Source: Streptomyces sp. NBC_01571
GTDB lineage: Bacteria; Actinomycetota; Actinomycetes; Streptomycetales; Streptomycetaceae
Length of the DNA stretch: 64,000 nucleotides
Assembly: GCF_026339875.1 (NCBI RefSeq)
Contig: NZ_JAPEPZ010000001.1
Location: 3,038,001-3,102,000, forward strand
Direction of reading: 5' to 3'
In this document: one piece after another, positions 5,898 to 52,340 of the stretch
Layout of the letters: every line of letters starts with the position of its first letter
Position numbering within the stretch: the stretch's first letter is position 1
Program-made: the position numbers and the translations under genes
The notes under the pieces: generated by a model
The model's database searches: none
What the model saw: the letters and a program-made list of their open reading frames with translations, nothing else
What the model was told of the DNA's origin: nothing

Positions 5898-6071
5898 GCG
5901 GTTCGTACGGGGCCACCGCAGCGTCGCCCGCGGGGCGCGGGTAGGTCCAGGCCGGTCCGCCGGGAGCGCGCGCCGGAAGCCCCTCCTTCCCGTCCGCCTC
6001 GGCCCGTACAGCGCCTTCACCGCACCCCGTACAGCGCCTTACAGCCCTCTCACCACACCCCGTGCGCCCGT

Positions 6072-7802: not shown

Positions 7803-7963
7803 GGCCAGGATGCTACCGACGGGTAGATCGAACGGCGACGGGCGGGGTGCGTGGCCTTGACCACGCGCCCTCAAGCTTTCTCGGCTTCCCCCGAGCGGGG
7901 GGCGGGCACCTCCATCGCCCGTCGGGCGGATCCAGGGCGCCTCCGGCGGAGGAAGGGCTCCAC

Positions 7964-11384: not shown

Positions 11385-11418
11385 CGCTGACATACGACAC
11401 GTAGGAGATGCATTTTCC

Positions 11419-12537: not shown

Positions 12538-12541
12538 AACC

Positions 12542-14065: not shown

Positions 14066-15126
14066 AGATAGACCTCACCGACTCCACTGCCAGCAAGATC
14101 AACAAGGCGCTCGTGCAGGGCCGCCGGGCCATCGGCACCCCCGCGGTCGGCATGGTCCTGACCCTCGTCATCGTCACCGACGAGGAGAACGCCTACGACG
14201 CCCTGAAGGCCGCCAACGAGGCCTCCCGCGAGCACCCCTCGCGCACCCTCGTGGTCATCAGGCGTGTCTCGCGCTCGCCCCGTGACCGCACGAAGTCCCG
14301 CCTCGACGCCGAGGTGCGGGTCGGCGCGGATGCGGGCACCGGCGAGACCGTCGTGCTTCGGCTGTACGGCGAGGTGGTCGACCACGCCGACTCGGTCGTC
14401 CTGCCCCTGCTGCTGCCGGACGCGCCGGTCGTCGTCTGGTGGCCGGTGAACTCGCCGCTCGACCCGGCGAAGGACCCGCTGGGCGCACTGGCCCAGCGCC
14501 GGGTCACGGACACCTACGCGGCCGAGGCGCCGGTACGGGAGCTCAACGCCCGCGCCGACGCCTACGCCCCCGGGGACACCGACCTCTCCTGGACCCGCAT
14601 CACACCGTGGCGTTCGATGCTGGCCGCGGCCCTGGACCAGGTCGTCTGCGACGTGAGCGCGGTCGAGGTGGAGGGCGAGGAGTTCAACCCGAGCTGCGAG
14701 CTGCTCGCCATGTGGCTCGCGGACCGGCTGAACGTGCCGGTCAGGCGTTCGCAGTCGTCCGGCCCCGGCCTCACGGCCGTCCGGATGGAGACCACCTGCG
14801 GCCCGATCGTCCTGGACCGTGCCGACGGCTCCCTCGCCACGCTGTCCATCGAAGGCCAGCCCGACCGTGCCGTGGCGCTCAAGCGCCGCGACACGTCCGA
14901 GCTGATCGCCGAGGAACTGCGCCGGCTCGACCCGGACGACACGTACGCCTCGGCGCTGCGGTACGGGGTGGACCGGCTGAACACCTCGTCGGACGAGTCC
15001 TCGGACGAGACCCCGGCCAGGACGGCGGTCAAGGTCGCCGCCAAGGCACCGGCCAAGGCACCGGCCAAGAAGGCCGCCGCCAAGACCGGCACCTCGGCCC
15101 CGGCCAAGAAGGCGGCCTCCAAGTGA
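14062..15126 (+). CDS. opcA: Glucose-6-phosphate dehydrogenase assembly protein OpcA
   Basis: OpcA assists assembly or redox activation of the Zwf oligomer. The first 300 of its 354 residues match the family, with LVIVTDEENAYDALKAANEA near residue 33 and the WWPVNSPLDPA stretch near 128. The last 45 residues are a Lys/Ala/Pro repeat tail (KAPAKAPAKKAAAK), a low-complexity extension. It is coupled to zwf by an ATGA overlap and to pgl by a GTGA overlap. Confidence 0.94.
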   Translation: MKIDLTDSTASKINKALVQGRRAIGTPAVGMVLTLVIVTDEENAYDALKAANEASREHPSRTLVVIRRVSRSPRDRTKSRLDAEVRVGADAGTGETVVLRLYGEVVDHADSVVLPLLLPDAPVVVWWPVNSPLDPAKDPLGALAQRRVTDTYAAEAPVRELNARADAYAPGDTDLSWTRITPWRSMLAAALDQVVCDVSAVEVEGEEFNPSCELLAMWLADRLNVPVRRSQSSGPGLTAVRMETTCGPIVLDRADGSLATLSIEGQPDRAVALKRRDTSELIAEELRRLDPDDTYASALRYGVDRLNTSSDESSDETPARTAVKVAAKAPAKAPAKKAAAKTGTSAPAKKAASK

Positions 15127-15905
15127 TCACTCCGCAGCTTGTCGTGCACCGCGACAAGGAGCTCATGGCCCAGGCCGCCGCGGCTCGGCTGATCACCAAG
15201 GTCGTGGACGCGCAGGCCTCGCGCGGCTACGCCTCGGTGGTCCTCACCGGCGGCCGCAACGGCAACGGACTCCTCGCGGCGCTCGCGGCCGAGCCCGCCC
15301 GGGACGCCATCGACTGGGGCCGGCTCGACCTGTGGTGGGGCGACGAGCGGTTCCTGCCCGCGGGCGACCCGGAACGCAACGACACCCAGGCCCGTGCGGC
15401 ACTGCTGGACTCGGTACCGCTGGACCCGGCACGGGTGCATCCGATGCCGGCGTCCGACGGTCCGCACGGCGCGGACGCGGACGCGGCGGCCGAGGCCTAC
15501 GCCGCCGAGCTCGCGAAGAACGCGGGACCGGAGAACCACGGTTCGGTCCCGACCTTCGACGTCCTGATGCTGGGCGTCGGTCCGGACACGCATGTGGCCT
15601 CGCTCTTCCCCGAGATGCCCGCGGTGCGCGAGACGGAGCGGACGGTGGTGGGTGTGCACGGCGCGCCGAAGCCCCCGCCGACCCGGATCTCGCTCACGCT
15701 GCCCGCGATCCGCTCGGCCCGCGAGGTGTGGCTGCTCGCGGCCGGCGAGGACAAGGCTCAGGCCGCGGCGATCGCCCTGTCGGGCGCGGGTGAGGTACAG
15801 GCTCCGGCGGCGGGTGCCCGCGGGCGCTCGCGGACGCTGTGGTTGCTGGACGCGGCGGCCGCTTCCCAGCTGCCGCGCTCGCTGTATCCGCCGGCTTCGG
15901 CGTGA
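15123..15905 (+). CDS. pgl: 6-phosphogluconolactonase
   Basis: Pgl hydrolyses 6-phosphogluconolactone, the product of Zwf. The 260-residue protein is a DevB/NagB-fold member: VVLTGGRNGNGLLAAL near residue 40, LWWGDERFLPAGDPERN near 70, and VLMLGVGPDTHVASLFPEMP near 147. The usual H in GxDGHxAS is T here (DTHVASLFP retains the His one position on). GTG at 15123 overlaps opcA. It is the last gene of the operon, followed at once by a terminator hairpin. Confidence 0.95.
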   Translation: MITPQLVVHRDKELMAQAAAARLITKVVDAQASRGYASVVLTGGRNGNGLLAALAAEPARDAIDWGRLDLWWGDERFLPAGDPERNDTQARAALLDSVPLDPARVHPMPASDGPHGADADAAAEAYAAELAKNAGPENHGSVPTFDVLMLGVGPDTHVASLFPEMPAVRETERTVVGVHGAPKPPPTRISLTLPAIRSAREVWLLAAGEDKAQAAAIALSGAGEVQAPAAGARGRSRTLWLLDAAAASQLPRSLYPPASA

Positions 15906-15911
15906 GGTGAC

Positions 15912-15968
15912 CGGGTAGGGGCGAGCGAGGGGTCACACGCCCCCGCCGCCCCTACCCGTCGTCCGTCC
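15912..15968 (+). terminator. Terminator hairpin after pgl
   Basis: CGGGTAGGGGCG at 15912-15923 pairs perfectly with CGCCCCTACCCG at 15957-15968, leaving a 33-base loop. It begins seven bases after the pgl stop and lies between convergent pgl and pgi. No U-run follows, as is usual in this genus. Confidence 0.7.
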
Positions 15969-16111
15969 CGGGACAGGCTGGAGGTGCCGGGCGCGGACCA
16001 TGCTCTTGAGGGGCGCGGGGGAGCCGCGCGACCGGCCCCCACCCCCTCGCACCCGGGAGAACACCTCGGACGGGCGGCCCCCCACCGCCCGTCGTCCCGC
16101 ACGCACGGGGC

Positions 16112-40509: not shown

Positions 40510-41163
40510 ATGACGTACAGCGGAGCGGTGAAGGTCGGCGGACCCGCCGAAGTGCACGAGCTGCAGAACCTGATGATCTCCAAGGTCGCGGTCGGCCCGA
40601 TGGACAACAACGCTTATCTGCTGCGCTGCCGGGCCACCGACGAGCAGCTGCTGATCGACGCCGCCAACGACGCCTCGGCGCTGCTCACGCTGATCGGTGA
40701 CGACGGCATCGCGTCCGTCGTCACCACCCACCGGCACGGTGACCACTGGCAGGCGCTCGACGAGGTCGTGGCGGCCACCGGCGCCCGTACCTACGCGGGC
40801 CGGGACGACGCGGAGGGGATCCCGGTGCCCACCGAGGTCCTCGTGGACGACGGCGACACGATCCGGGTGGGCCGTGTGGAGCTCACCGCACGTCACCTGG
40901 TGGGACACACGCCGGGCTCGATCGCCCTCGTCTACGACGACCCGCACGGGCACCCCCATGTCTTCACGGGGGACTGCCTGTTCCCCGGCGGTCCTGGGCG
41001 GACAACACGTCCGGAGGAGTTCAACTCCCTGATGGACGGCCTGGAGACCAAGCTGTTCGACGTCCTGCCCGACGAGACGTGGATCTACCCCGGCCACGGC
41101 AACGACACCACCCTCGGCACGGAGCGGCCCCACCTCGCGGAGTGGCGCGCACGAGGCTGGTAA
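40510..41163 (+). CDS. MBL-fold metallo-hydrolase (target of element insertion; hybrid 3' end)
   Basis: A 217-residue metallo-beta-lactamase-fold protein of the glyoxalase II-like type: metal motif THRHGDHW near residue 77, further ligands in RHLVGHTPGS near 137 and FTGDCLFPGG near 155, and YPGHGNDTTLG near 195. The last 60 residues start at the TTCCC in the LFPGG codons; a divergent second version of the same C-terminus stands alone at 52155-52340. I infer that an 11-kb element entered here and supplied this replacement 3' end, keeping the gene intact. Confidence 0.9.
   Translation: MTYSGAVKVGGPAEVHELQNLMISKVAVGPMDNNAYLLRCRATDEQLLIDAANDASALLTLIGDDGIASVVTTHRHGDHWQALDEVVAATGARTYAGRDDAEGIPVPTEVLVDDGDTIRVGRVELTARHLVGHTPGSIALVYDDPHGHPHVFTGDCLFPGGPGRTTRPEEFNSLMDGLETKLFDVLPDETWIYPGHGNDTTLGTERPHLAEWRARGW
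40971..41000. other. Presumed left attachment site (attL)
   Basis: The TTCCC at 40981-40985 is the shared core of the two MBL gene 3' ends, flanked on the left by host coding sequence. To its right the sequence CGGCGGTCCTGGGCGG diverges from the right junction (GGGTGGTGTGGGCAAC). A longer 9-bp match (TGTTCCCCG, 40979-40987 and 52110-52118) also exists but would put the reading frame out. Confidence 0.5.
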
Positions 41164-41256
41164 CCGGCCGCATCCGCGCGGTGCCGCCACCCCGGTGAGG
41201 TCCAACGCCCGCGGCCACTGCCGCACGCCGAATGGCCGGGGTTACGCTGGCCGAAC

Positions 41257-41281
41257 GGTGAGGGCCGGATAGACCCTCACC
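41257..41281. terminator. Hairpin after the MBL-fold gene
   Basis: GGTGAGGG at 41257-41264 pairs with CCCTCACC at 41274-41281 around a nine-base loop, in the convergent gap between the MBL-fold gene and the leftward 54-aa gene. Likely a bidirectional terminator. Confidence 0.6.
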
Positions 41282-41369
41282 GCAGGCTGCCTTCATGACG
41301 GGAGGCCCGTGTCTTTGCCCTGCGAAAGCGAGCACGGATCCCCAGATCGGGTAGCCAGGGGCCGGTCCC

Positions 41370-41534
41370 TCATCGAGGGCCGGCCCACAGACTGAGCAGG
41401 ACCGGCGCGGCCAGCAGCACGGTGTCCAGCGCGTGCCACGCGAATCTGCCGCGTGCGGTCATCGACCAGCGCACGAACCGGCCGTACTTGGCCCTCGGCT
41501 GCTGCCGCTCGCGCCGGCGGGCTGTCTTCCTCAT
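41370..41534 (-). CDS. 54-residue small membrane protein
   Basis: A short reading frame with a good start: ATG at 41534 behind GAGGAGCA. The protein begins MRKTARRRERQQPRAKYG, a strongly basic cytoplasmic end, and finishes with a single hydrophobic segment (ALDTVLLAAPVLLSLWAGP). It lies 96 bases downstream of the winged-helix gene on the same strand. Small basic membrane proteins of this sort occur in Streptomyces plasmids and integrative elements. Function unknown. Confidence 0.6.
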   Translation of the reverse strand: MRKTARRRERQQPRAKYGRFVRWSMTARGRFAWHALDTVLLAAPVLLSLWAGPR

Positions 41535-41630
41535 TGCTCCTCATCCCTCCTTTCTCGATCGTCGTTGTGGTCGGGGCGGCGGACGTGTCCGGTGGTCCTC
41601 GGCTTCGCGGACGCAGGTGGTCGGCGGCGG

Positions 41631-42488
41631 TCATCCCGGCTGTCCGGCCTGGATGTCGGCGCCGTCCTGCGGCGCGAGCGGGCCGCGCTCCTCGGCCTCC
41701 AGTCGTTCGACCTCGGCCTTGCTCAGGTTGATGTTGAACGGTTCGGCCAGCTGGTAGGTGTGCAGCCATTCCCAGCCGCGCATGGCGCGCGCGTCCATCA
41801 CCTCGTCGGGCCCCATCTTCACCAGCAGCTTGTGGTGCAGCAGCTCCTCGATGCCCCGCGCCATCGTGTGGCGACCCAGGCCCAGGGCCTGGGCACCGCG
41901 GGTGTCCTGCGGGAGGGTGAAGGTTTCCTTCCGTCTGCTCATCGCGGCCAGCAGGACGGCCTTGCCGGGCATGTTCAGCTTCACGTGCCAGTTCTCGCGC
42001 CAGTAGGCGAAGGGGACCCGGAAGTAGACATCGCTCTTGGTGCCGGTGGGGACGGTGTAGTCCACCGTCATGTTCTCGACCCGTCCGATCTCGTGGCGCT
42101 TGACGATGCGCTTGAGGCGGCCGTGCTGCCTCCGCTCGATCAGGCCCAGCTTCTCCAGGTGCTCCCACTGCCGGGAGACGGCCACGCTCGCCCCCTTGTC
42201 GGGACGCATGTAGATGCCGGCCGCCCGCGCCCAGAGCTGCGAGCGCTCGGTGACGCCGAAGTCTCTGCCGGTGGTGACGGCGTAGACGAGCAGCAGCAGC
42301 TCCAGGGCGTGGGGGGTCCGCAACAACTTGGACAGGGGCCCCGGCCCAGTGCTCGGATCTCCGGGCGGACTATTGATGTGGCTCTTCTGGACGAACTCCC
42401 GGCGTATCGGGAACACTTCGTCCTTGCGTCGGGAACGCCGCAACAGGTACTCGATCGACTCTTCCCGGGTCATCACACGCTCGACCAT
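41631..42488 (-). CDS. Winged-helix protein of the element, replication/regulatory type, unknown function
   Basis: A 285-residue protein with two probable winged-helix segments: residues about 75-115 (GASVAVSRQWEHLEKLGLIERRQHGRLKRIVKRHE) and about 180-225 (FTLPQDTRGAQALGLGRHTMARGIEELLHHKLLVKMG). The paired winged-helix layout recalls plasmid replication initiators and partition regulators, but I cannot assign a family. ATG at 42488 follows GGAGGGGAGCGAGG; the open frame to 42686 looks non-coding. Confidence 0.65.
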   Translation of the reverse strand: MVERVMTREESIEYLLRRSRRKDEVFPIRREFVQKSHINSPPGDPSTGPGPLSKLLRTPHALELLLLVYAVTTGRDFGVTERSQLWARAAGIYMRPDKGASVAVSRQWEHLEKLGLIERRQHGRLKRIVKRHEIGRVENMTVDYTVPTGTKSDVYFRVPFAYWRENWHVKLNMPGKAVLLAAMSRRKETFTLPQDTRGAQALGLGRHTMARGIEELLHHKLLVKMGPDEVMDARAMRGWEWLHTYQLAEPFNINLSKAEVERLEAEERGPLAPQDGADIQAGQPG

Positions 42489-42703
42489 GGCCTCGCTCCC
42501 CTCCACCGGCACCCCGACGGTGCCCCCGAGAAGAGAATGCCTCCAGCCCCGTGGTCCGGACGAACTGCGAGCGCGGCTCCCGCACCCCCTCGTCACCGGT
42601 GCCGGAGGCACTGGTAGATCCAGACCACCAACACCACCATGCAGGACCCTGACCCGCCGAAAAGGCAGGTCAACGCGCAGCAGCACCGCCTCAATGTCGG
42701 TTC
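42489..42703. other. Non-coding upstream region of the winged-helix gene
   Basis: The open leftward frame through here encodes a Gly/Arg/Ser-rich string without structure, so I treat it as non-coding. A perfect 11-bp inverted repeat marks its right edge. Confidence 0.4.
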
Positions 42704-42732
42704 TCAGACCGGAATGTTGCAGTCTGAGAACC
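42699..42732. repeat. Perfect 11-bp inverted repeat
   Basis: GGTTCTCAGAC at 42699-42709 is complementary to GTCTGAGAACC at 42722-42732, with a 12-base loop. It overlaps the end of a 64-codon frame, whose stop is at 42704-42706. It could be a terminator for that frame or an operator for the winged-helix gene. Confidence 0.7.
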
Positions 42733-42898
42733 CATCGGCGTCATAGATCTGCAGCAAAGGGTGCACCGCGAGGCACGGCGAACCGGCCGCCTCCGGAACC
42801 CGACCCGCGACCTCAATCTTGGGGAACGGCGGTACGGCGGCGCTGAAAACGACCATGGTCAGGGGTCTTCGATCGAGGAAGCTACCCGCCAGGAACAT
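42704..42898 (-). CDS. Hypothetical protein (64 aa, or 50 aa from an inner ATG)
   Basis: A possible small gene: MFLAGSFLDRRPLTMVVFS... ending in SDCNIPV. Codon choice is less GC-biased than in neighbours. The inner start (MVVFSAAVPPF) would give 50 residues. No family, membrane segment or motif is recognised. Its stop lies in an inverted repeat. It may equally be a fragment. Confidence 0.35.
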   Translation of the reverse strand: MFLAGSFLDRRPLTMVVFSAAVPPFPKIEVAGRVPEAAGSPCLAVHPLLQIYDADGFSDCNIPV

Positions 42899-43098
42899 GC
42901 AGAGGACCCCGAGAAGTCGTCTCGCGCCACTTCTCCGTCGCGGTAGGCTCTCGCCCGGTTAGATGCGTACGCCGCCCGCCGCCACCCCGCGCCCACGCCG
43001 CAGGTGATCGACCGGCCAAGGTTCCTGCGGGAGCCCGCACCCCTCCGGCATTCCTCGTCCGGCGGGAGCGTGGGGACCGCCAGGAGCGAGCGTCAGAG

Positions 43099-43617
43099 AT
43101 GCCGAAGAAGAACCCGTCGACAGCCGCGCAGCGGGCCCGCCAGCGCCAGGCCACGACGGGCGAGAACTACACGACCGCCCTCCGCGCCGAGACCCGTCCC
43201 GCCGTCCCACGGCCCGCCGTCGCGCACGCCATCTTCAGCGCGGCTGGCGAGGGATGGGCGCCCATCAGCAGGCAGGCGGAGCGCGAGCTGCGCGAGGTCT
43301 GGCCCGGCCACCCCGTGCCGTACTGGCAAGAGAAGTTCGGTGACCTGTGCTGGAAGTCCGTGCCTTACGACGCGGCTCCCGAGGTCCATGCGGTGATCTT
43401 CCGGGCCATCCGGCAAGCATCGGTCACCTGCCAGACCTGCCCGTCCCCGGGCCGCAAGCGTGTCGTCTGGGTCGGTCTGGACTGGGGAGGGATGCCGTGG
43501 GTCAAGACCTGCTGTGACACCTGCTACTACATGCCACCGGCCCATGAAATCCCCGGCTGGAGGATCCAGCGGAGCGAGTACCAAGATCTCGTCGACTCGT
43601 ACGAGGACCGCGGCTGA
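43099..43617 (+). CDS. Hypothetical CxxC protein of the element (172 aa)
   Basis: ATG at 43099 behind GGAGCGAG. The N-terminal MPKKNPSTAAQRARQRQATTGENYTTALRAE is a short segment often seen at the start of Streptomyces plasmid and element proteins. The C-terminal half has two cysteine pairs, CQTC near residue 111 and CCDTC near 138, which could bind zinc or an Fe-S centre, plus conserved Trp-rich strands. Function unknown. A strong terminator follows. Confidence 0.7.
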   Translation: MPKKNPSTAAQRARQRQATTGENYTTALRAETRPAVPRPAVAHAIFSAAGEGWAPISRQAERELREVWPGHPVPYWQEKFGDLCWKSVPYDAAPEVHAVIFRAIRQASVTCQTCPSPGRKRVVWVGLDWGGMPWVKTCCDTCYYMPPAHEIPGWRIQRSEYQDLVDSYEDRG

Positions 43618-43632
43618 CCGTACGGCCGGATA

Positions 43633-43676
43633 GACCGACGGGGCCCGGCGGAATCGTCCGCAGGGCCCCGCCGGTC
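43633..43676. terminator. Terminator after the CxxC protein gene
   Basis: A 20-bp stem with two mismatches (43633-43652 with 43657-43676) and a four-base loop ATCG lies 16 bases after the stop. The arms contain CGGGGCCC and GGGCCCCG. Confidence 0.8.
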
Positions 43677-43740
43677 GCGGTGTCGTCGGGGGAGGGAGGT
43701 CAGGTCAACCCGGCCGTGGCGTTGTCCTCCCAGCCATCGA

Positions 43741-44088
43741 CCCGCTGGAAGTAAGCTGGCCCGGGACGTGTGCCACGGCAAGCGCGGCACCATCCACCAG
43801 GCGTACCGGGACGGGATGGAGGACCAGCTCGGCGCGCTCGGCTTGGTCCTCAACGCCATCGTGCTCTGGACGACGAAGTACATCGACGCCGCCGTCGCCC
43901 AGCTCCAAGCCGAGGGCCACGACATCCGGGAAGAGGACATCGCCCGACTTTCCCCGCTCAAGCACCGCAACCTGAACCTGCTCGGCCGCTACAGCTTCGC
44001 CGGCAGCGTCCCGGCCGCCGGTGCCCTGCGTCCGCTGAGCGACCCGGATGCGCACGAACTGGATGAGGACGAAGAGGGCGAGGAGTGA
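43741..44088 (+). pseudogene. Tn3-family transposase remnant (C-terminal part only)
   Basis: From about 43750 the frame reads KLARDVCHGKRGTIHQAYRDG, then MEDQLGALGLVLNAIVLW, then LGRYSFAGSVPAAG and an acidic C-terminus. This is the last 110 residues of a Tn3-family DDE transposase, whose full length is near 950-1000. Upstream there is no continuing frame, so only the 3' end remains. No inverted terminal repeat could be located. Confidence 0.8.
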
Positions 44089-44239
44089 GCAGGAGGGTGC
44101 TGCTCAAGGGTTACGCGGTGCCCTCGATCTCGGCCCGCAGCCGGGGCGGCGAAGCCACAGCGCCGGATGTGCTCCCAGCGTTGCCGCACGCGGCACCAAG
44201 AAACACCCGTTGAGTTTGTCCTCGAACGGGCCGGTCCGG

Positions 44240-45040
44240 TCAGTTCAGCAGGGCAGCTGTGAACGTCTTGCGGTGGTCCACCAGCCAGGTCTGCACGCGG
44301 TCCCAGCGCTCCCATCCACCACGCTCGGCCAACGCCTGGAGATAGGTAGGGTCTCCGCTGGCTACGCGGTGGGCGACGAAGGCCCGGCAGACCTCCGTGG
44401 CCTGCTCGATGACGCCAGGCAACTCGGCGCGGCCCTCCGCCGAGAGGCCGTAGCCGTCGGCAAGAATCCGCAGCCGTGCGGCCGTCTCTAGCCCGGGGGG
44501 ATGGAGAGCAGCCGCGGGCTCGGGATCAAGCATGGGCACCCAATAACGGGCGGTCATGGCGATGTCCCAGAGGGCACGGCCCGGGGCCGCCAAGTCGAAA
44601 TCGATCAGGGCCGCGGCACGACCGTCGCGGAAGACGACGTTCTCCGGGCACACATCGTTGTGGCACAGCATCGTTCCCCCCTCCGGGTCGGCCAGGTCCC
44701 GCGGCCACTCGGCACGGGTGTCGACCGCGACGGCCGCGCTGGTCTCATGCAGACGCCGCAGCAGGCTCCCCACCGATTCGAGGGCAGAACTCCTCATCGC
44801 CCAGTCCGGGAACGGCGGCAGAGCCACGTCGCCAGGGATGAAGGTCAGCTGCTCACGGCCATCCGCTGTGAGACCGACAGGGGCCGGCGCCGCGTCGAAG
44901 CCGTGCTCCTTCAGCGCAAGGAGATAGGCATGCAGGGCGCGTGCGTTGCGCGGTGCCGGTCGCTCCACCAACTCCCCCCGGCGGAAGACCGCCCCCACGT
45001 TCACCATCCCGCCGACCAGCGCCTCGTCTTCAGCCGTCAT
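44240..45040 (-). CDS. APH-like phosphotransferase
   Basis: A 266-residue aminoglycoside phosphotransferase/kinase-fold protein. The catalytic loop LCHNDVCPENVVF near residue 125 has the HxDxxxxN pattern and IDFDLAAPGRALWDIA near 145 has the metal-binding DFD. Substrate could be an aminoglycoside, a sugar or another hydroxyl compound. ATG at 45040. The gene lies between a transposase remnant and a broken gene, so it is probably cargo of an older transposon. No stop or frameshift is seen in it. Confidence 0.85.
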   Translation of the reverse strand: MTAEDEALVGGMVNVGAVFRRGELVERPAPRNARALHAYLLALKEHGFDAAPAPVGLTADGREQLTFIPGDVALPPFPDWAMRSSALESVGSLLRRLHETSAAVAVDTRAEWPRDLADPEGGTMLCHNDVCPENVVFRDGRAAALIDFDLAAPGRALWDIAMTARYWVPMLDPEPAAALHPPGLETAARLRILADGYGLSAEGRAELPGVIEQATEVCRAFVAHRVASGDPTYLQALAERGGWERWDRVQTWLVDHRKTFTAALLN

Positions 45041-45097
45041 GAGGATCACGCTATCGGCAGATCGACCCCGCGCGGGGCGGCCTGCGCACGACGTGGA

Positions 45098-45612
45098 TCA
45101 ACGTACGACGGAACGCGCGACGCGGAATCCCACGTCGTCGACCTGGAAAGTCGGGTGGCTGCGGCGCCGCGCGGAGGCCCGGCAACTCCAGTGCTCATCT
45201 AACCAACCACCGCCACGGAGCACCCGGTGGGCGCCATAGACCTCGGCGTCGTAGACGTCCCAGCACCAGTCCCAGACGTTGCCGAGCATGTCGTAAAGCC
45301 CCCACGAGTTGGGGCGTTTGCCGCCCACCTCGTGGATGCGCTCGGCGAGTTACCGCGGTACCAGCCGATCTCGTCGAGATCCCCGTAGTGCGGCCCGGTC
45401 GTCCCGGCCCGGCAGGCGTGCTCCCACTCGGCTTCGGTCGGCAGTCGATACCCGTCGGCGGACGCGTCCCACTCGATGACTTCAGCCTCGGCACGGATGT
45501 GGTACGCGGGCGTGAGGCCGGCCCACTGGGACAGGGCGTTGCAGAACCGCGTCGCGTCCCACCAGGAGACGCACTCGACGGGCAACTGGTCCCCAGGGGT
45601 GGTACTGGGCCG
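45098..45612 (-). pseudogene. Formylglycine-generating enzyme-like (SUMF1) gene, truncated and frameshifted
   Basis: The leftward frames encode [35 protein letters not shown] and GWYRGNS, then after a one-base frame change near 45349, [27 protein letters not shown] and VGFRVARS. These are typical FGE-sulfatase-domain sequences. The first 70-100 residues are missing at the junction with the resolvase fragment near 45610. Both the truncation and the frameshift show it is broken. Confidence 0.8.
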
Positions 45613-46182
45613 CTGGCCTGTGATCTGTTGATCGACGCGATGCGCGCCGCCGGAGTCGCCGAGGAGCACATCTACGTCGACAAACGCACCGGCGCGAACA
45701 TGGACCGCGAGGGCCTGGCCGCGCTGGTCGCCTTCGCCCGGCCCGGCGACCGGATCAACGTGCTCACCCTGGACCGGCTCGGCCGCAACATGCGCGAGAC
45801 TCTCAACCTCGTGCACGACCTCACCCAGCGCGGCATCCACTTGCGTACCCTCGGCGACAAACTCGCCGTCGACACCGGCGAGCCCGGCCCCGGCACCGAG
45901 ATGGCCATCGCCCTGCTGGCGATGTTCGCCCAGATGGAACGGATCTACATGCTGGAGCGTGCCGCAGGCGCCCGCGCCGCCAAGCAGGCCCACGGCCTGC
46001 CGACCGGGCGCCCGGCAAAGCTCAACGCGACAACCCGCGCCGGAGCCGCTCAACGGATCAAGGACGGCGCGATCCCCGAGCAGGTCGCCGCCGAGCTCGC
46101 GGTGAGCCGCTCCACCCTGTACCGGGAACTACGCAAACACCGCGAGAGCGCCACCGCCGAACAAGTCGCGCAGGAGGGCTGA
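45612..46182 (+). pseudogene. Serine resolvase/invertase gene lacking its catalytic N-terminus
   Basis: From about 45618 the frame reads [20 protein letters not shown], then [40 protein letters not shown], and a C-terminal HTH ([20 protein letters not shown]). This is a Tn3-type resolvase or DNA invertase, but the first 15-20 residues, including the catalytic serine of the YxRVST motif, are replaced by the antisense of the broken sulfatase-modifying-like gene. Without them it cannot catalyse. Confidence 0.85.
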
Positions 46183-46212
46183 TCAGCCACCCGGCCCACA
46201 TTCCTACTGGTC

Positions 46213-46227
46213 AGCGTTATCCGTTGT
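46213..46227 (+). repeat. 15-bp repeat copy 1, after the broken resolvase
   Basis: AGCGTTATCCGTTGT here matches AGCGTTAACCGCTGT at 52090-52104 in 13 of 15 bases and the same orientation. Both lie shortly after the stop codon of a serine recombinase gene (30 and 16 bases). It may be an end or recombination half-site shared by these recombinases. Confidence 0.5.
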
Positions 46228-46281
46228 TTCTGCGGCCGTTGCTACCGGGATCCCATGAAGTGGCGTGGATCACATCACGTC

Positions 46282-46310
46282 GAAAACCTGATGGCCGGCC
46301 CCGGCGTCTA
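46282..46310 (+). promoter_or_regulatory. ECF-type promoter of the sigma-factor operon
   Basis: GAAAACC at 46282-46288 and CGTCTA at 46305-46310 are spaced by 16 bases, the pattern of promoters read by many ECF sigma factors (-35 AAC core, -10 CGTC). The GTG start is six bases after the -10, implying a leaderless transcript. This suggests the sigma factor reads its own promoter. Confidence 0.65.
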
Positions 46311-46316
46311 GCCGGT

Positions 46317-46877
46317 GTGAGATCAGTCAGGAAGGCACCGGGCGAGTCGGACGAGGAGCGCCTTGTCCGACTGGTGGCCAGGGGCGACCGCGCGGCGTTC
46401 GATGAGCTGTACTGGCGCACCGCGCCATGGCTCGCGGTGCGTCTGCGGCGGCGCTGCGCGGACGAGCAGATCGTCGCCGAGGTCATGCAGGAGACGTATC
46501 TGGCGGTGTGGCGGGCGGCGGGCGCGTTCGCCGGGGCCGCGGTCGGTGGAAGCGCCGTGGGCTGGCTGTGGACGATCGCGGCACGCCGTCTCGTCGACGC
46601 GTTCCGGCGCAGGGCCCACCATGCGGAGCCGCCGCCGGCGGCCGCCGCGCAGTGCGTGGCGCCCGCCGCCGAGGAGGAGGCGCTCGCGGCGACCGTCGGT
46701 GGTGACGTCGGGGACGCGCTGCGGCGCCTCGCGCCCGAACTCAGAGAAGTACTGCAGGCCATGGTGCTGGACGGGTTGTCCGTCCGGGAGACCGCGGTCC
46801 TGCTCGGCGTGCCCGAGGGCACGGTCAAGACCCGTGCCCGCCGGGCCCGGACCGAGATGCGGAGGGAGCTGGCATGA
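46317..46877 (+). CDS. ECF RNA polymerase sigma factor
   Basis: A 186-residue extracytoplasmic-function sigma factor. Region 2 runs from RLVRLVARGDRAAFDELY near residue 15 through VAEVMQETYLAVWRAAG near 60; region 4 is LRRLAPELREVLQAMVL and the HTH LSVRETAVLLGVPEGTVKTR near 150. GTG at 46317 (VRSVRKAPGE) is chosen because the promoter sits just upstream; the open frame to 46224 would cross it. ATGA overlaps the anti-sigma gene, the start of a five-gene operon. Confidence 0.93.
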   Translation: MRSVRKAPGESDEERLVRLVARGDRAAFDELYWRTAPWLAVRLRRRCADEQIVAEVMQETYLAVWRAAGAFAGAAVGGSAVGWLWTIAARRLVDAFRRRAHHAEPPPAAAAQCVAPAAEEEALAATVGGDVGDALRRLAPELREVLQAMVLDGLSVRETAVLLGVPEGTVKTRARRARTEMRRELA

Positions 46878-47701
46878 GTATGGAGCACGCGTCGGCACGG
46901 CTGATCGACGACTACGCGCGCGGTGACCGGGGCATCGCCGCCGACGAGGTGTGGGCCGTGGAGGCCCACCTGGAGGTGTGCCGGGAGTGCCGTGACCGGC
47001 TGTCGGCCGCGACCCGGGCGCATGCGCCTGCCGTGACGGCGCTGGTCGAGGCGGTGTGGTCCGGCCTCGGACCCCGGCTGGACACCGGCAGCATGTCCCG
47101 CCGGCCGCGCTGGTCGGCACGGGTGTCCGGCTGGCTGACGCCCACGATGGTGCCGTGGCTGGTCATGGTCATGAGCGTGACGCTGCTCGCGCTGCTGCTC
47201 GATCTGGCCGGCACCGGCGCGGGTTACGGCTCCGGCCACGTGTCGCTGGTGCTGCTGCTCGCCCCCGTGCTTCCCGTGCTCGGCGTCGCGGCGTCGTGGT
47301 CGCGCGGTCTGGACCCGGCATACGAGCTGACGGCCTCCGTGCCCAGGGCCGGGCTTCCCCTGGTGCTACGGCGCACCGTGTCCGTGCTCACGGTCGTCGT
47401 CCCCGTGTTGCTGGTGGGCGGATGGGCGACAGGGGTGACGGTCGCGCAGTGGCTGCTTCCCTGCCTGGGGTTCACCTCGACGACCCTGGCACTCGGCGGC
47501 GTCGTCGGCGTGAGCCGTGCCGCCGTCGCGCTGGCCATGGTTTGGGCCGCGGTGGTCCTGGCACCGGCCCTGGCCACCGACGGGATCCCCCTTGCTCTGC
47601 ACACGGCCGGCCTGCCCGTGTGGGCGCTGATCCTCACCCTCGGCATTGGTGTCGTGATCGCCCGCAGGGGCGCGTACGCCGAGTTGGGGGCCCATCGATG
47701 A
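46874..47701 (+). CDS. Membrane anti-sigma factor with zinc-finger (zf-HC2) and transport-like domain
   Basis: A 275-residue protein whose first 45 residues hold the ZAS zinc motif HLEVCREC (HxxxCxxC), which binds ECF sigma factors. The rest has about six hydrophobic segments (VPWLVMVMSVTLLALLLDL near 95, then VSLVLLLAPVLPVLGVAA, VLTVVVPVLLVGGW, and more) rather than the single segment of ordinary anti-sigma factors. It overlaps the sigma gene by ATGA and the ATPase gene by ATGA. It probably tethers and inhibits the sigma factor and links it to the transporter. Confidence 0.88.
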   Translation: MSMEHASARLIDDYARGDRGIAADEVWAVEAHLEVCRECRDRLSAATRAHAPAVTALVEAVWSGLGPRLDTGSMSRRPRWSARVSGWLTPTMVPWLVMVMSVTLLALLLDLAGTGAGYGSGHVSLVLLLAPVLPVLGVAASWSRGLDPAYELTASVPRAGLPLVLRRTVSVLTVVVPVLLVGGWATGVTVAQWLLPCLGFTSTTLALGGVVGVSRAAVALAMVWAAVVLAPALATDGIPLALHTAGLPVWALILTLGIGVVIARRGAYAELGAHR

Positions 47702-48531
47702 CCCATAGGAAGGAACACCTCTTGATGTCCGAGGTGAACGCGGCCGACCTCGCACCGACGCCCTACGCCTGGGAGATCCAGGCAAGGGGGCTGAAGGTGC
47801 GGGTCGGTCGGAAACGGATGGCCGTCGACGGGCTCGACCTGAAGCTGGGCACCGGCGTGCACGGCCTGCTCGGACCCAACGGGGCCGGCAAGACCACCCT
47901 CATCCGGGCGCTGGCCACGGTGCTGCGCCCCGCCGAGGGCACCTTGGAACTCCTCGGCGAGCCTGCGGGCGGGGTGGGCCGGCATCGTGCGCTACGCCGT
48001 CGGATCGGCTATCTGCCGCAGGAGTTCGGCTACTACAGGCGGTTCACGGTACGTGAGTTCGTCGAGTACATGGCGTGGCTGAAGGAGGTTCCCAAGGCGG
48101 ACATCCCCGCGGCGGTACAGCGAGCAGTCGAGCGAGTCGGCCTCGCGGACCGTGCCGACGACCGGATGAGGACCCTGTCGGGCGGCATGGTGCGGCGCGT
48201 CGGGATCGCCCAAGCCATCGTCAACGACCCGGCGATCCTGCTCCTCGACGAGCCGACCGTCGGCCTGGACCCGGCCCAACGACTGCGCTTTCGCGCGCTG
48301 TTGCAGGAACTGGGCACGGACACCTGCGTGGTCGTCTCGACCCACCTGGTGGAGGACGTCGGCGCCGCCTGTACCGACGTGGTGCTCTTCGCCGAGGGCC
48401 GGCTGGTCTTCCAGGGCACCCCGGACGAACTGGCCGCGGCCGGCCGTCCCGAGCATGTTGGCGACAGCCCGCTGGAGCGCGGCTACTCGGCGCTGCTGCT
48501 CGCCCCCGAGCGGGCAGGGGGTACGTGGTGA
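47698..48531 (+). CDS. ABC transporter ATP-binding protein of the sigma-factor cassette
   Basis: A 277-residue ATPase. Walker A GPNGAGKTTLIRA near residue 60, signature LSGGMVRRVGIAQ near 160, Walker B ILLLDEPTVGLDP near 180 and the H-loop STHLVEDV near 215. The Q-loop sequence IGYLPQEFGYYRRFTVREF and LSGGM resemble BcrA-like bacitracin/lantibiotic immunity ATPases. ATG at 47698 overlaps the anti-sigma stop; a second ATG at 47725 with GGAAGGA upstream is an alternative start. Confidence 0.93.
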   Translation: MTHRKEHLLMSEVNAADLAPTPYAWEIQARGLKVRVGRKRMAVDGLDLKLGTGVHGLLGPNGAGKTTLIRALATVLRPAEGTLELLGEPAGGVGRHRALRRRIGYLPQEFGYYRRFTVREFVEYMAWLKEVPKADIPAAVQRAVERVGLADRADDRMRTLSGGMVRRVGIAQAIVNDPAILLLDEPTVGLDPAQRLRFRALLQELGTDTCVVVSTHLVEDVGAACTDVVLFAEGRLVFQGTPDELAAAGRPEHVGDSPLERGYSALLLAPERAGGTW

Positions 48532-49910
48532 GTCTCCGTGTCCTGTCCATCGAGCTGAAGCGCTCCGTCGCACCGTGGGCCGGCGCCATGAGCCTGGCAA
48601 CGGCGCTGACGTTCCTGCTGTCGGGCTCTGGGCAGGGAACCCTCACGGGATGGACGGCGCAGTGGACGTCACTGGCCCTGCAGACCCGCTTCCTGTTGAA
48701 CTTCCTGTGGCCGCTGGCCATGGGACTCGGGGCGCTGCAGGGCCTGCGTGACCACCGCTCCAAGGTGTCTGAGCTGCTGACAAGTACACCGAGGCCGGCC
48801 TCGCACCGTGCGGCCTCACTGTCGAGCGCGATGGCGATCACGCTCGCCTCGGCTTTCGCGGTGCTCGTTCTGGTGGGCGGGGTGCAGGTAGTCGCCCGCA
48901 CCGAGTACACGCACCTCGGGTGGCTGCCGATTTCGCTGGTGGGGGCACTCGCTCTCGCCGCGGGGGCCGTGCTGGGCATGGGGGTCGGGCGAACCCTGCC
49001 GTTCGTGCTCACTCCACCCGCGCTGGCCGTCAGCGCCCTGGCGTGCATGCAGCTCGTGTACATCTCGCTGACGAAGGTGGACGCGTCGACGGGGTTCACC
49101 ATGCAGGAGCCGAACCGGCTCTCGCTGCTGTCGCCGGCCCAGGAAGCACGCGATGTGCTCCTCACGCTCTCCACGTCGGTGCACGTCGGGCAGATGATCT
49201 GGCTGCTGGGCATGACCGCGACCGGATTCGCACTGCTGGTCACCAAGAGGCTTCGCAACCGGCTGATCGCGCTGACGCCCATCCTGGTGGGCGCGGCGAT
49301 CGCCCTGTGCGTCTTCCCCTCCGACCCACATCGGATGTACGTCGTCGACAAGGCCGCCGCGCACCTGGTGTGTGACGGCCCCATATGTGTGACGAGGACT
49401 CACCAGGCCCGACTCGACGCCCTGGCAGGCCCTGGCAAGGACGCGTTGCGCAGGATGCGCGGTGCCCTGGGGGATTACGCGCCGGTGTCGGTCCGGGAGG
49501 ACACCGACGCATGGCCGGACGGCTCTACACCGCGGTGGTCCCGCAGGATCGCGCTCTTCGACTTCGCCAGCGACGACACCCTGCTCACCGCGGAGGGAGA
49601 AGAGCTCTCCAAGGCCCTGGTCGGCGACAGTCTGGTGCCGAATTGTTCTCCACGCGCCTGGGCATCGGTGAACGTCAGCGACATCTCCGCGCAGAGTATC
49701 GCCGTGGGCTGGCTCTTCAACGACCCCGAACCGTCCAGCAGCGACATCGCCTATCTGTCGAAGGACCAACTCGGCAAGGTTCGTAGGGTGTGGAGTGAAT
49801 TCAAGGATCTCCCGTCGGCCGAACAGCGCACGCGGGTCAGGGCGATGTACCTCGGCGCGGTCGCATGCAAGGGCGATCCGCTCGCCGTGCTGGACGGCGG
49901 ACCGGCATGA
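48528..49910 (+). CDS. Large membrane component with extracytoplasmic cysteine-containing domain
   Basis: A 460-residue protein. The first 265 residues contain six or so hydrophobic segments (IELKRSVAPWAGAMSLATAL at the start, a membrane segment ending RLIALTPILVGAAIALCVF), like an ABC permease. The last 190 residues are hydrophilic, with four cysteines (CDGPIC, PNCSPR, VACKGD) and charged helices, most simply an extracytoplasmic sensor or binding domain. GTG overlaps the ATPase stop. No close family is recognised. Confidence 0.75.
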   Translation: MSLRVLSIELKRSVAPWAGAMSLATALTFLLSGSGQGTLTGWTAQWTSLALQTRFLLNFLWPLAMGLGALQGLRDHRSKVSELLTSTPRPASHRAASLSSAMAITLASAFAVLVLVGGVQVVARTEYTHLGWLPISLVGALALAAGAVLGMGVGRTLPFVLTPPALAVSALACMQLVYISLTKVDASTGFTMQEPNRLSLLSPAQEARDVLLTLSTSVHVGQMIWLLGMTATGFALLVTKRLRNRLIALTPILVGAAIALCVFPSDPHRMYVVDKAAAHLVCDGPICVTRTHQARLDALAGPGKDALRRMRGALGDYAPVSVREDTDAWPDGSTPRWSRRIALFDFASDDTLLTAEGEELSKALVGDSLVPNCSPRAWASVNVSDISAQSIAVGWLFNDPEPSSSDIAYLSKDQLGKVRRVWSEFKDLPSAEQRTRVRAMYLGAVACKGDPLAVLDGGPA

Positions 49911-50503
49911 TGAGATGGCTGACCCTGTACGCACGCTCGCGGCAGATACCCGTGTCCCTCGCCACCCTGATGACCAGCACAGTGCTTGTCTGCGCACTCG
50001 CCTGGGACGGGAGCGCGGGGCCAGGTGATCCGCGACTGCCTGTGCTCGTCATCGGTACGGGGACGATGGCAGCCTCGATCGGGCTGAGCGGGCAGGACCT
50101 CGCACTGGACCGGACGGCCGCGATCCCGTGGATCCCCCGAAGAGCGGCGCATGTGCTTTTGGCCGGAGTGCTTATCGGCGCGGTATTGGCGGCAGCGCAG
50201 ACGATCGGCGAGGACATGGCCCCTACCGGCCTCATAGCCCGAGACTGCGCGGGCCTGATGGGACTGGCTGCGCTGGGCGCGACCCTCCTGGGCGGTCACT
50301 ACGCGTGGTCCCTACCGTTCGCCTGGCTCGCGTTCTCGATTTTCGCCCCGCCCCCGACCAGCGTCGCCACGGAGGCGGCCACCTGGCTGCTCCTGCCACC
50401 CGGCACACCTGCCGGCACCTGGACTGCCCTGAGCCTCGCACTCGTCGGCACGACCACCTACGCCATCGCGGGACCGCGCCGTTTCGGAGTCCGGCACCAG
50501 TAG
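49907..50503 (+). CDS. Second membrane protein of the sigma-factor cassette
   Basis: A 198-residue integral membrane protein with about five hydrophobic segments (IPVSLATLMTSTVLVCALAW near residue 15, LPVLVIGTGTMAASIGL, AHVLLAGVLIGAVLAAAQ, and two more before PRRFGVRHQ). ATG at 49907 overlaps the previous stop (ATGA). It is probably the partner permease subunit of the ATPase. No substrate motif is visible. Confidence 0.78.
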   Translation: MMRWLTLYARSRQIPVSLATLMTSTVLVCALAWDGSAGPGDPRLPVLVIGTGTMAASIGLSGQDLALDRTAAIPWIPRRAAHVLLAGVLIGAVLAAAQTIGEDMAPTGLIARDCAGLMGLAALGATLLGGHYAWSLPFAWLAFSIFAPPPTSVATEAATWLLLPPGTPAGTWTALSLALVGTTTYAIAGPRRFGVRHQ

Positions 50504-50509
50504 CCGGAG

Positions 50510-50543
50510 ATCGCTGACCGGGACGGAAGTGCCGGTCAGCGAT
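50510..50543. terminator. Terminator of the sigma-factor operon
   Basis: ATCGCTGACCGG at 50510-50521 pairs perfectly with CCGGTCAGCGAT at 50532-50543, ten-base loop, seven bases after the last stop. A clean end to the five-gene unit. Confidence 0.85.
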
Positions 50544-50590
50544 GGGGCCCCACGCCGACTCAGCCCCCGCCATGAGCGAAACCACCACAG

Positions 50591-50776
50591 CTACCTGACC
50601 TCCTCGGACTCGCCGCCGCACTGTGCTGCCACAACCGACTCATCCGCCTCACCACGTAGGACACGGTGCAAGTGGGGCGGGCGTTCGGAGGGGGCCGCCC
50701 TCTGTGACCGTAGTTCGGTGATCTCCTTCCGTGCGGCAGTCTCCCGCCGATCGAGCTCCTCCAGCCACGACACCAT
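50591..50776 (-). CDS. Hypothetical small protein (61 aa) with coiled-coil start
   Basis: ATG at 50776 behind a good GGAGG site, six bases away. The protein begins MVSWLEELDRRETAARKEITELRSQ, a charged coiled coil like the N-terminus of many small transposon-associated proteins, then has a short basic region and ends in GGESEEVR. The body of that family appears cut short. Function unknown. Confidence 0.45.
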   Translation of the reverse strand: MVSWLEELDRRETAARKEITELRSQRAAPSERPPHLHRVLRGEADESVVAAQCGGESEEVR

Positions 50777-50982
50777 CGCCGCCTCCCACCACGTCCTGAG
50801 ACACGACGATCCGCCGTCCGAGCACGAACGGCAACGGCGCACAGCATCACCAGCTCACTGCAGAAGAGCCGCACCCGTCGTCCTTCACTGACACAGACAG
50901 CCATCGATCATCCTTCAGTGGCAATCGATCAACGTTCACTGGCACAGGTCAATCTCCCCAGGCTGATCGCCGTCCAGCTTGC

Positions 50983-51014
50983 GCCTGTCGGCAAACGATC
51001 GTTTGACGACAGGC
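50983..51014. repeat. 32-bp near-perfect palindrome upstream of the recombinase gene
   Basis: Outer arms GCCTGTCG and CGACAGGC flank the perfect 14-bp palindrome CAAACGATCGTTTG, with one mismatched base pair between them. It ends 132 bases before the recombinase start. A dimeric recombinase or regulator binding site is likely. Confidence 0.85.
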
Positions 51015-51111
51015 AGGCGGCGCGTCCAATGAACCCGTGCAATCCGGGGGTTCACGGCGGCCCGAATCCAATCGGATCCGATGGTGATTGCCGACAGGGT
51101 TTGACGACAGG
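51002..51111 (+). repeat. Direct repeat TTTGACGACAGG (two copies, 98 bp apart) and a 12-bp palindrome
   Basis: TTTGACGACAGG is at 51002-51013 (inside the palindrome) and again at 51100-51111. A third CGACAGG lies at 51092-51098. Between them is the perfect palindrome ATCGGATCCGAT at 51071-51082. A TAGGGT follows the second copy and may act as a -10 box for the recombinase gene. Confidence 0.75.
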
Positions 51112-51146
51112 TAGGGTCCGATCCTCCGTACGGAAGGGGCCCCTCG

Positions 51147-52073
51147 GTGGCGAACCTGGTCTACAAGCGGGTCTCGACCGACCAGCAGTCCACCGCCCGG
51201 CAGAACCTCGTCCTGGACGAGGCCGGGATCGAGGACCCGGTCGTCTTCGAGGAGGACCCGGGCACCTCCAGCCGCCTGCACCCCCTCCAGCGGCCGAAGT
51301 TCCGCGAGCTGCTGACGTATTCGCGGCCGGGCGACACCGTGCACATCTCCGAGATGTTCCGCCTCGTCCGCGGCACCGGGCACATCCTCGACGTGCTCGA
51401 CGTCCTCCACTGCGACCAGGTGGCGCTGCGCATCCACGACGGCGCGTTCTCCGCGATGGACCTCACCGCCCGTCACCCGCGCACCGGGGAGCTGCTGTCC
51501 ACCGTGAAGTTCATGGTGCAGACCCTCGCCGCCGCCGGCGAACTCCAGCGAGACCTCCAGCGCGAGCTGACCTACGACGGACTACGCGCCGCCGAGGCCA
51601 AGGGCAGCAAGGGCGGCCGTCGGCCCGCCGTGGCGACCGACAAGACCGACACCGTCCGCACCGCATACCTGGAGGGCCGCTCGATTGCTGCCCTCGCCCG
51701 CGACCACGGCGTCAGCCGCGGCGCGATTCGCACGGCGGTCGCCGACCTCATGCCCGACCACAACGGCATCGCGCAAGAGGGCACCCGCGCCTTGGAGCTG
51801 CCGGTCACCCTCGACATGCCGGGCAAGGTCGCGGACTTCCTCCGCACCGCTGACCTGGAGCCCGCCGAGCGGGCCGCGCTCGGCGAAGGGGTGACCGTAC
51901 GGCGCGGCCAGGGCTACACCCTGCGCATCACGGCCGTGCCAGCGGTCCACCGCCAGCTCCTCGCCCGCTGCCAACCGCTCGATGGCGGCCAGGGTGTCCC
52001 TGCCGTCCCTGCCCAGCGCAAAGCCCGGCGCGAGTACGAGAACCGCGTCACCGGCCTCGGAAATCCGGCCTGA
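51147..52073 (+). CDS. Small serine recombinase, probable integrase of the element
   Basis: A 308-residue resolvase/invertase-family protein. The N-terminal YKRVSTDQQST has the catalytic serine at residue 10; the domain continues with LTYSRPGDTVHISEMFRLVRG and ends in an HTH at about 175-200 (IAALARDHGVSRGAIRTAVADL). It differs from resolvases by a 100-residue C-terminal domain (LPVTLDMPGKVADFLRTADL, YTLRITAVPAVHRQLLARCQ). GTG at 51147 follows GGAAGGGG. It lies next to the right junction and points at it. Family homologues are common in Streptomyces. Confidence 0.9.
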   Translation: MANLVYKRVSTDQQSTARQNLVLDEAGIEDPVVFEEDPGTSSRLHPLQRPKFRELLTYSRPGDTVHISEMFRLVRGTGHILDVLDVLHCDQVALRIHDGAFSAMDLTARHPRTGELLSTVKFMVQTLAAAGELQRDLQRELTYDGLRAAEAKGSKGGRRPAVATDKTDTVRTAYLEGRSIAALARDHGVSRGAIRTAVADLMPDHNGIAQEGTRALELPVTLDMPGKVADFLRTADLEPAERAALGEGVTVRRGQGYTLRITAVPAVHRQLLARCQPLDGGQGVPAVPAQRKARREYENRVTGLGNPA

Positions 52074-52089
52074 ACAAGATCACCCGCTT

Positions 52090-52104
52090 AGCGTTAACCG
52101 CTGT
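52090..52104 (+). repeat. 15-bp repeat copy 2, after the serine recombinase gene
   Basis: AGCGTTAACCGCTGT, near-palindromic around GTTAAC, lies 16 bases after the recombinase stop and 50 bases before the right junction. See the copy at 46213-46227. Confidence 0.5.
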
Positions 52105-52139
52105 ACCGATGTTCCCCGAGGCCGGTGTCGGCGGTGTTC

Positions 52140-52175
52140 TCCGAGGTGATCGCCTTCCCGGGTGGTGTGGGCAAC
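52140..52175. other. Presumed right attachment site (attR)
   Basis: TTCCC at 52155-52159 is the point where homology to the MBL-fold gene begins. Left of it is element sequence; right of it is the displaced host 3' end. Confidence 0.5.
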
Positions 52176-52340
52176 ACCCGCAAGGACCCGGAGGCGTTCG
52201 CCAGCCTCATCCACGACGTGGAGACGAAGATCTTCGGCCCGCTGCCGGACGAGACCTGGGTCTACCCGGGGCACGGCAACGACACGACTCTGGGTGCCGA
52301 GCGCCCGCACCTGCCGGAGTGGCACGCGCGCGGCCGGTGA
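52155..52340 (+). pseudogene. Orphan 3' end of the MBL-fold metallo-hydrolase gene
   Basis: From FPGGVGNTRKDPEAF onward this frame aligns, without gaps, to the last 60 residues of the hydrolase at 40510-41163 (LPDETWVYPGHGNDTTLG against LPDETWIYPGHGNDTTLG) and ends ARGR. Upstream sequence has no homology. Internal wording such as VGNTRKDPEAFASL is what I recall for undisturbed Streptomyces homologues, so this is probably the displaced native end. Confidence 0.85.

Follow-up and report, generated by a model that had tools for sequence, protein, structure and literature searches.

Why does Streptomyces sp. NBC_01571 carry two versions of the 3' end of one hydrolase gene? The window analysed here, 64,000 nucleotides of contig NZ_JAPEPZ010000001.1 (positions 3,038,001 to 3,102,000, forward strand), contains at 40510-41163 an open reading frame (ORF) for a 217-aa MBL-fold hydrolase (Pfam Lactamase_B, E 6.6e-12). 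Its C-terminus reads FPGGPGRTTRPEEFNSLMDG...RGW; an orphaned frame at 52155-52340 reads FPGGVGNTRKDPEAFASLIHDV...RGR. On alignment, the two tails of 60 and 61 residues share 42 identities, and the likeness starts in both at the Phe codon TTC (40981 and 52155). A whole-genome search independently recovered the orphan, with 63 % identity to hydrolase residues 145-216 (E 8.4e-24), thus the likeness is not due to chance. An earlier sequence-only reading had described two versions of one C-terminus about 11.2 kb apart, an orphan starting at FPGG and a serine recombinase gene just inside the orphan end. These descriptions were borne out: the insert measures about 11.17 kb, the orphan begins at the same codon as the tail of the completed gene, and the recombinase gene (PF00239) lies at 51147-52073. 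The insert is very probably the remains of an element that entered the hydrolase gene by recombination between an element-borne (attP) and a chromosomal (attB) attachment site, catalysed by a large serine recombinase (LSR), and thereby replaced the 3' end of the gene.

Native and imported ends of the hydrolase gene

The hydrolase gene was searched in 61 genomes, its own included, and the best-match loci were read for 29 other genomes. In 26 of these loci the head runs directly into FPGG(V/I/L)GNT, the type of end seen in the orphan; the remaining three (G003, G013 and G028) have the PGRTT type of the completed gene in the window. Since 26 of 29 relatives carry the orphan-type end, the orphan is, on this comparison of sequences, the native end of the hydrolase, and the gene now bears a foreign one. 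The uninterrupted gene that had been predicted for relatives without the insert was thus found. In G013, too, an orphan follows about 4.2 kb downstream, and the cargo differs from that of the window. The empty-site genome G024 is nearer to the window (89 %) than the occupied G003 or G013 (85-87 %), hence the insertion recurred or was lost.

The imported tail was then searched in 392 genomes of the genus, with some match in 376, and longer stretches were taken for 35 loci chosen from these matches (the window, L034-L036 and L070-L100). FPGGPGRTT was present in 30 loci, the window included. The other five had native tails and were rejected as occupants: L087 (G290), L094 (G149), L096 (G247), L097 (G356) and L098 (G405). 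Thirty genomes with an imported tail, or 31 with G193, are therefore a lower bound among the 392. Within the stretches taken, at least 19 of the 30 loci also show a native orphan, whole or in part; twelve orphans are clean, the others are those of G003, G250, G385, G188, G367, G293 and G314. Across many species, and with cargo that differs, the insert joins the gene at one and the same base. The proposal that an element inserted site-specifically into the coding region and brought a substitute for the 3' end is supported by these empty and occupied sites. In L094, two native-type tails lie 7.7 kb apart (at 2054 and about 9800), and between them lies a piece of resolvase sequence that shares 90 % identity with part of the window ORF 45388-46182.

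The imported end is maintained as protein, since its ratio of nonsynonymous to synonymous differences (pN/pS) is 0.22, compared with 0.23 for heads and 0.24 for native tails (33 imported and 31 native genes). The gene across the junction reads through in frame at full length and is subject to purifying selection, and the native 3' end is orphaned. The tail supplies the motif PGHG; its counterpart in an alignment with glyoxalase II-like chains is their last conserved motif, and the His of PGHG presumably binds metal in this fold. The restored hydrolase would be expected to be active.

A large serine recombinase and its probable attachment sites

Which enzyme made the junction? At the G188 and G374 loci, an LSR gene reads leftward from just inside the orphan, and pieces of an LSR lie between the hydrolase and the downstream flank in five more loci (G254, G385, G173, G134 and G003). 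The LSR of S. lucensis has 504 aa with the resolvase N-terminal catalytic domain (PF00239) and the Recombinase domain (PF07508), a layout usually found in proteins of about 450-700 aa. Matches at E 1e-60 were confined to 6 of the 392 genomes. The gene is open in G188, G367 and G374, has one stop within the match in G293 and G314, and is a fragment (residues 8-168) in G193. All six genomes possess the imported tail, five as read directly and G193 taken as Streptomyces sp. TP-A0356 (PGRTT). If 31 of 392 genomes have the tail, the chance of this coincidence is about 1.5e-7; the real value is larger, 31 being a minimum. In G314 the hydrolase is about 216 kb from the LSR (C1:5564885 to 5782410), with a native tail at the LSR end, either a very large element or a rearrangement. 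The G367 element (L073:2381-3514 raw) also encodes a tyrosine-recombinase-like protein, with PF00589 just under the curated cut-off. Six ORFs of the G293 and G367 elements gave no Pfam FtsK or Rep match, a 736-aa protein being FtsK/TraB-like by eye only.

A scan of named genomes for the LSR yielded 15 loci, of which four belong to genomes treated above. Thirteen loci show a native-type tail that starts with FPGG and directly adjoins the LSR on the opposite strand; they belong to Streptomyces (6), Kitasatospora, Nocardia ignorata, Mycolicibacterium elephantis, Mycobacterium (three) and Micromonospora. The two others are L131, a Streptosporangiaceae metagenome-assembled genome with an imported-type tail beside the LSR, and L139, an LSR fragment with a second imported tail about 5 kb off. 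Full gene and orphan are on one contig, 10-27 kb apart, in 10 of the 13 records L126-L138; in two they are on different contigs, and one record is without a full gene. All 12 full genes read from LSR-bearing records end in the (P/L)GRTT tail.

The attB consensus of the 26 native genes is GT.TTCACcGG.GACTGcCTc TT CCC.GGcGG.GTgGGCAACAC, with the crossover dinucleotide TT, as deduced from the junctions, within the Phe codon of FPGG. In all 16 attR and attP sites (14 genomic, 2 phage) RTRTT stands at exactly -26 from TT, a spacing with which G293, G314 and G374 agree; in the native genes GTNTT stands at -21. Right of TT, AACAC is 5 bp more distant in attP than in attB. A zinc-ribbon motif shifted by 5 bp between attP and attB is part of the published LSR model, as given in the accessible text of PMC3783163. 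The sites described here, with a short core and an outer motif that lies 5 bp further from it in attP, thus fit the LSR rule. The attL of the window is intact and matches the attL consensus of 22 occupied loci, and its P' arm is that of the attP of phage Collard.

The sequence-only reading had implied that the adjoining serine recombinase was the agent of the insertion. The gene of this 308-aa protein ends within the insert, 81 bp from the right junction, and serine recombinases are able to integrate DNA. The protein had no match, however, in the other 34 loci compared, and the att sites are fitted by a different enzyme, the LSR. Its relatives, often partial matches at E 1e-30 in 17 of 100 other genomes, sit elsewhere, in G012 for example 1.2 Mb from the hydrolase. 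On these comparisons the small recombinase is probably not the integrase, and we consider it very unlikely that it made this insertion; this part of the earlier proposal was abandoned in favour of the LSR.

The codons of the imported tail carry a further mark of the attachment site. PGRTT is mostly coded CCT GGN CGG ACA ACA. At the two Thr sites, ACA is used in 13/14 and 14/14 LSR-bearing genes, in 18/21 and 19/21 genes with an insert lacking an intact LSR, and in 1/4 and 2/4 genes without insert; the share of ACA among Thr codons is 2.5 % in background genes and 1/138 later in the imported tails. The rare codons CCT and ACA-ACA are what a DNA-binding constraint on a coding sequence would give. 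Those LSRs of Streptomyces, of phage and of two mycobacteria that were inspected can begin (M/V)NT, on presumed start codons, so the first LSR codons may be the other AACAC motif of attP. No such start was found in the LSR ORFs of Nocardia, Micromonospora and L131. In L093 (G188) and in the LSR alignment, the LSR start codon may fall within the P arm, and both arms of attP may thus be coding, one for the integrase and one for the hydrolase tail.

The integration would proceed by a crossover at TT of the Phe codon of FPGG, between the conserved active-site motif GDC and the later PGHG. The attP of the element would continue in frame as a complete alternative 3' end, and the native one would be left behind beyond the insert. 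The hydrolase would therefore stay intact and keep the last conserved His motif, and one stretch of DNA would serve both as the P' arm and as the PGRTT codons. Related LSRs would use the same codon in Streptomyces, Kitasatospora, Micromonospora, Nocardia and Mycobacterium. The carriers are chromosomal elements, mostly of about 4-35 kb, and temperate K5-type mycobacteriophages.

The annotated phage integrases closest to the LSR are those of the K5-type mycobacteriophages, with about 42-45 % identity; among annotated phages (304 matching records) and plasmids (33) there was no close relative, all being below 60 % identity. The replacement tail occurs in 12 mycobacteriophage records (9 phages), the same 12 that lead the list of integrase matches; the adjacency of both genes was read in one, Collard. 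Gene 37 of Collard, annotated as a hydrolase, is the end of the replacement tail and lies opposite to the adjacent integrase. Viral contigs contained 14 LSR relatives, two of them with the tail and both K5-type phages. Two phage contigs from human faeces, MT836519 and MT837754, carry a hydrolase tail with 56-61 % identity.

Several observations weigh against an LSR-mediated insertion. The genome of the window has no LSR match at E 1e-60, and none lies within the insert; most occupied loci are likewise without an LSR, the intact open gene being present in three genomes. G173 (L082) has an LSR-type right end with an arm 5 bp shorter, at -21. The right junction of the window lacks the P-type arm (-26) and has an attB-like left arm, hence it is no simple attR. 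By eye, L078 and five loci with TetR, FAD-oxidoreductase and MFS genes also have an attB-like right arm, the right arms of L077 and L080 have neither spacing, and L091 is a near match only. Over all pairs of imported genes the tails are barely more similar than the heads (0.847 vs 0.838). With the window as reference, identity is 93-97 % for 11 of 26 imported tails of equal length and 83-90 % for the heads of those loci, and the tail is more similar than the head in 22 of the 26; this comparison left out L079 and L080, and six imported tails of other length were not compared with that of the window. A horizontal movement of the tail thus seems visible only within the closer tail class of the window itself. 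The 12 clean orphans gave a pN/pS of 0.134 against the nearest native, with 0.187 for native pairs, hence no relaxed selection, where plain decay would have been expected, on few differences and with broken orphans excluded; the orphans may simply be young. Finally, four genomes (G028, G184, G249 and G073) have an imported-type tail with neither insert nor orphan seen. The sequence-only reading had named such relatives as evidence against an insertion. They exist, and in three of the four the codons of the attP arm have largely drifted, so these tails read best as sites from which the element was lost long ago; the proposed insertion itself was retained.

The same four genomes, the inserts differing between species and the orphans without relaxed selection could also be explained without any integration: a tandem duplication of the tail, or a homologous exchange or gene conversion with a foreign hydrolase, would have been split later by unrelated inserts. 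This is contradicted by the position of the junction at one base whatever the cargo, by right ends of 57 bp that are 100 % identical in four species whose tails beyond TT share 78-94 %, by phages that carry the tail next to an integrase, and by the conservation of rare codons, which marks a DNA site. We regard an origin without integration as extremely improbable. The preferred reading, an insertion by an LSR, draws on the empty and occupied sites, the adjacency of LSR and native tail, the phage attP, the arm geometry, the codon constraint and the purifying selection, as they present themselves in the sequences. From these we infer the catalysis by the LSR and the loss of the LSR from the window in a later rearrangement.

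The insert of the window and its right junction

The features of the locus are listed in Table 1. The Tn3 fragment, the APH ORF and the truncated FGE-sulfatase protein adjoin each other (43768-45328), signs of repeated insertion and decay within the element. The ORFs up to 50503 resemble, by eye, a membrane/ABC cluster. On sequence grounds, the copy in the window appears to be a decayed, rearranged relic.

Table 1 Features of the hydrolase locus in the window
Feature	Coordinates	Strand	Remarks
MBL-fold hydrolase gene, chromosomal head	40510..40980	+	Continuous with native genes of relatives; Lactamase_B
attL	40960..41008	+	B arm 40960-40980 (GTCTT at -21), TT 40981-40982, P' arm 40983-41008 ending AACAC
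Imported replacement 3' end, PGRTT type, completing the hydrolase	40983..41163	+	93-97 % DNA identity to 11/26 imported tails; purifying selection
Inserted DNA, ~11.17 kb, putative relic of an integrative element without LSR	40983..52154	+	
ORF, 351 aa	41631..42686	-	No Pfam match; possibly replication related (by eye only)
Tn3-family transposase fragment	43768..44088	+	DDE_Tnp_Tn3
Cargo: phosphotransferase ORF, APH family	44240..45049	-	Pfam
Cargo: C-terminal fragment, FGE-sulfatase domain protein	45098..45328	-	Pfam
Second small resolvase-type recombinase ORF	45388..46182	+	PF00239; HTH_7 just under cut-off; 90 %-identical stretch in the G149 locus
Cargo: sigma-70 family (ECF-like) sigma factor	46224..46877	+	
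Small serine recombinase, 308 aa	51147..52073	+	PF00239, E 1.3e-17; probably not the enzyme that made the insertion
Right junction	52134..52177	+	GTGTT at -21, TT 52155-52156, native B' arm to 52177
Orphaned native hydrolase 3' end, FPGGVGNT type	52155..52340	+	Last residue R where natives have W

How did the right end of the window arise? The five loci with an attB-like right arm whose cargo, by eye, comprises TetR, FAD-oxidoreductase and MFS genes offer a comparison. In four species, the 57 bp left of TT are 100 % identical, with heads of 84-93 % and orphan tails of 78-94 % identity; the comparison was ungapped, and the fifth locus, L035, was left out for an indel in the arm. This arm, X, occurs in three states: X-Y, with no hydrolase tail after it (G343 and G121), X-P' (G240) and X-B' (five genomes). 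The arm of L078 is 81 % identical to a stretch inside the tyrosine-recombinase-like gene of the S. resistomycificus element. As a complement to the insertion by an LSR, these attB-like arms at -21, the three states of X and the origin of the L078 arm suggest a later event: the element would have recombined with a secondary attB-like site in resident DNA, perhaps a tyrosine-recombinase gene, and then lost its LSR. In the simplest order, a secondary attB near the cargo (X-Y) would have recombined through the LSR to X-P', and a reaction or deletion with the resident attR would have led to X-B'. Against this, the succession of steps is conjectural, the resemblance of the Y arm to attB is loose, and the tyrosine-recombinase match of the window itself consists of a few codons seen by eye and could be due to chance. 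We hold the chances of such a secondary recombination to be evenly balanced.

Two imported tails 13.8 kb apart, with the truncated X-P' junction between them, are found in L083 (G240, 1832-16000), possibly tandem elements; the genes between them are, by eye, carotenoid-cluster-like. TetR-type cargo also occurs in other Streptomyces contexts (L189-L200), with two matches each in G357, G338 and G272, and in 7 of 19 loci read the homology of this cargo ends about 31 bp before the TT junction.

A more general, tentative and on balance rather doubtful suggestion is that the hydrolase site acts as a hub where the LSR system moves DNA that has no integrase. In at least five Streptomyces species the TetR-oxidoreductase-MFS unit with its captured attB arm X would have reached the site, by an attL x attR reaction dependent on a recombination directionality factor or by secondary-site capture via a resident integrase, and the 11-kb cargo of the window would have taken the same route. 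Serine integrases would, if this were true, drive the exchange of gene cassettes at a self-repairing protein gene.

Significance and comparison with known systems

The LSRs described here would form a family of serine integrases whose attP is also a coding sequence, such that the insertion costs the host nothing obvious; this would account for the repeated use of one enzyme gene as a landing site across actinobacterial families. For the K5-type mycobacteriophages the site is a predicted attB. It also offers candidates for integration vectors that disrupt no gene, and can serve to test constraints of a DNA site and of a protein on the same codons. This hydrolase site is not described in the accessible parts of PMC5679794, PMC8092301, PMC9262239, PMC6379469, PMC3218068, PMC10083194, PMC10654092, PMC9513070, PMC4111918 and PMC5937489. 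An LSR version of gene-restoring integration was not found among the papers listed in a literature search that did not extend to subscription papers and supplements; the supplements of PMC10083194 may list the site.

The K5-type mycobacteriophages share with the Streptomyces elements the serine integrase, the spacing of the attP arms and the kind of replacement tail. They are isolated phages, and the Streptomyces elements are not themselves the K5 phage. Larva, AlleyCat and Edugator are named as K5 in the part of PMC5679794 at hand, Collard, Kratio and others being placed here by similarity; the same source mentions a 43-residue ORF of K5 phages related to hydrolase C termini.

Integration by LSRs into protein genes with a short core is known from Bxb1 in groEL1, from MabI/MabJ and from a survey of LSR targets (PMC8092301, PMC9262239, PMC10083194). 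As far as their accessible text goes, the target ORFs are disrupted there, for instance by the serine-integrase prophages of PMC8092301, whereas the hydrolase ORF is restored with a replacement end under selection. According to the available portion of PMC9262239, a 2022 review, the sites of serine integrases must be found by experiment. A further group are the actinomycete integrative and conjugative elements Mmar2129, Mav3790 and Srot1958 (PMC3218068), which are actinobacterial, possess serine recombinases and target protein genes like the hydrolase elements; in the accessible text the target gene is unnamed and no restoration of the gene is described.

Element e14 in icd of Escherichia coli is likewise an insertion in a protein gene with a replacement 3' end supplied and the native end stranded, as outlined in the accessible part of PMC6379469. 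There, attL and attR are homologous, whereas the hydrolase elements have a short core with arms differing by 5 bp; as a consequence, their replacement end differs in protein sequence at PGRTT. Gene-restoring integration was thus already known from icd, and what appears to be new here is an LSR family with a coding attP. Phage 21 shows the same arrangement in icd as e14. The integrase of e14 is a tyrosine recombinase; the hydrolase elements, unlike e14, would use an LSR and are found in several families.

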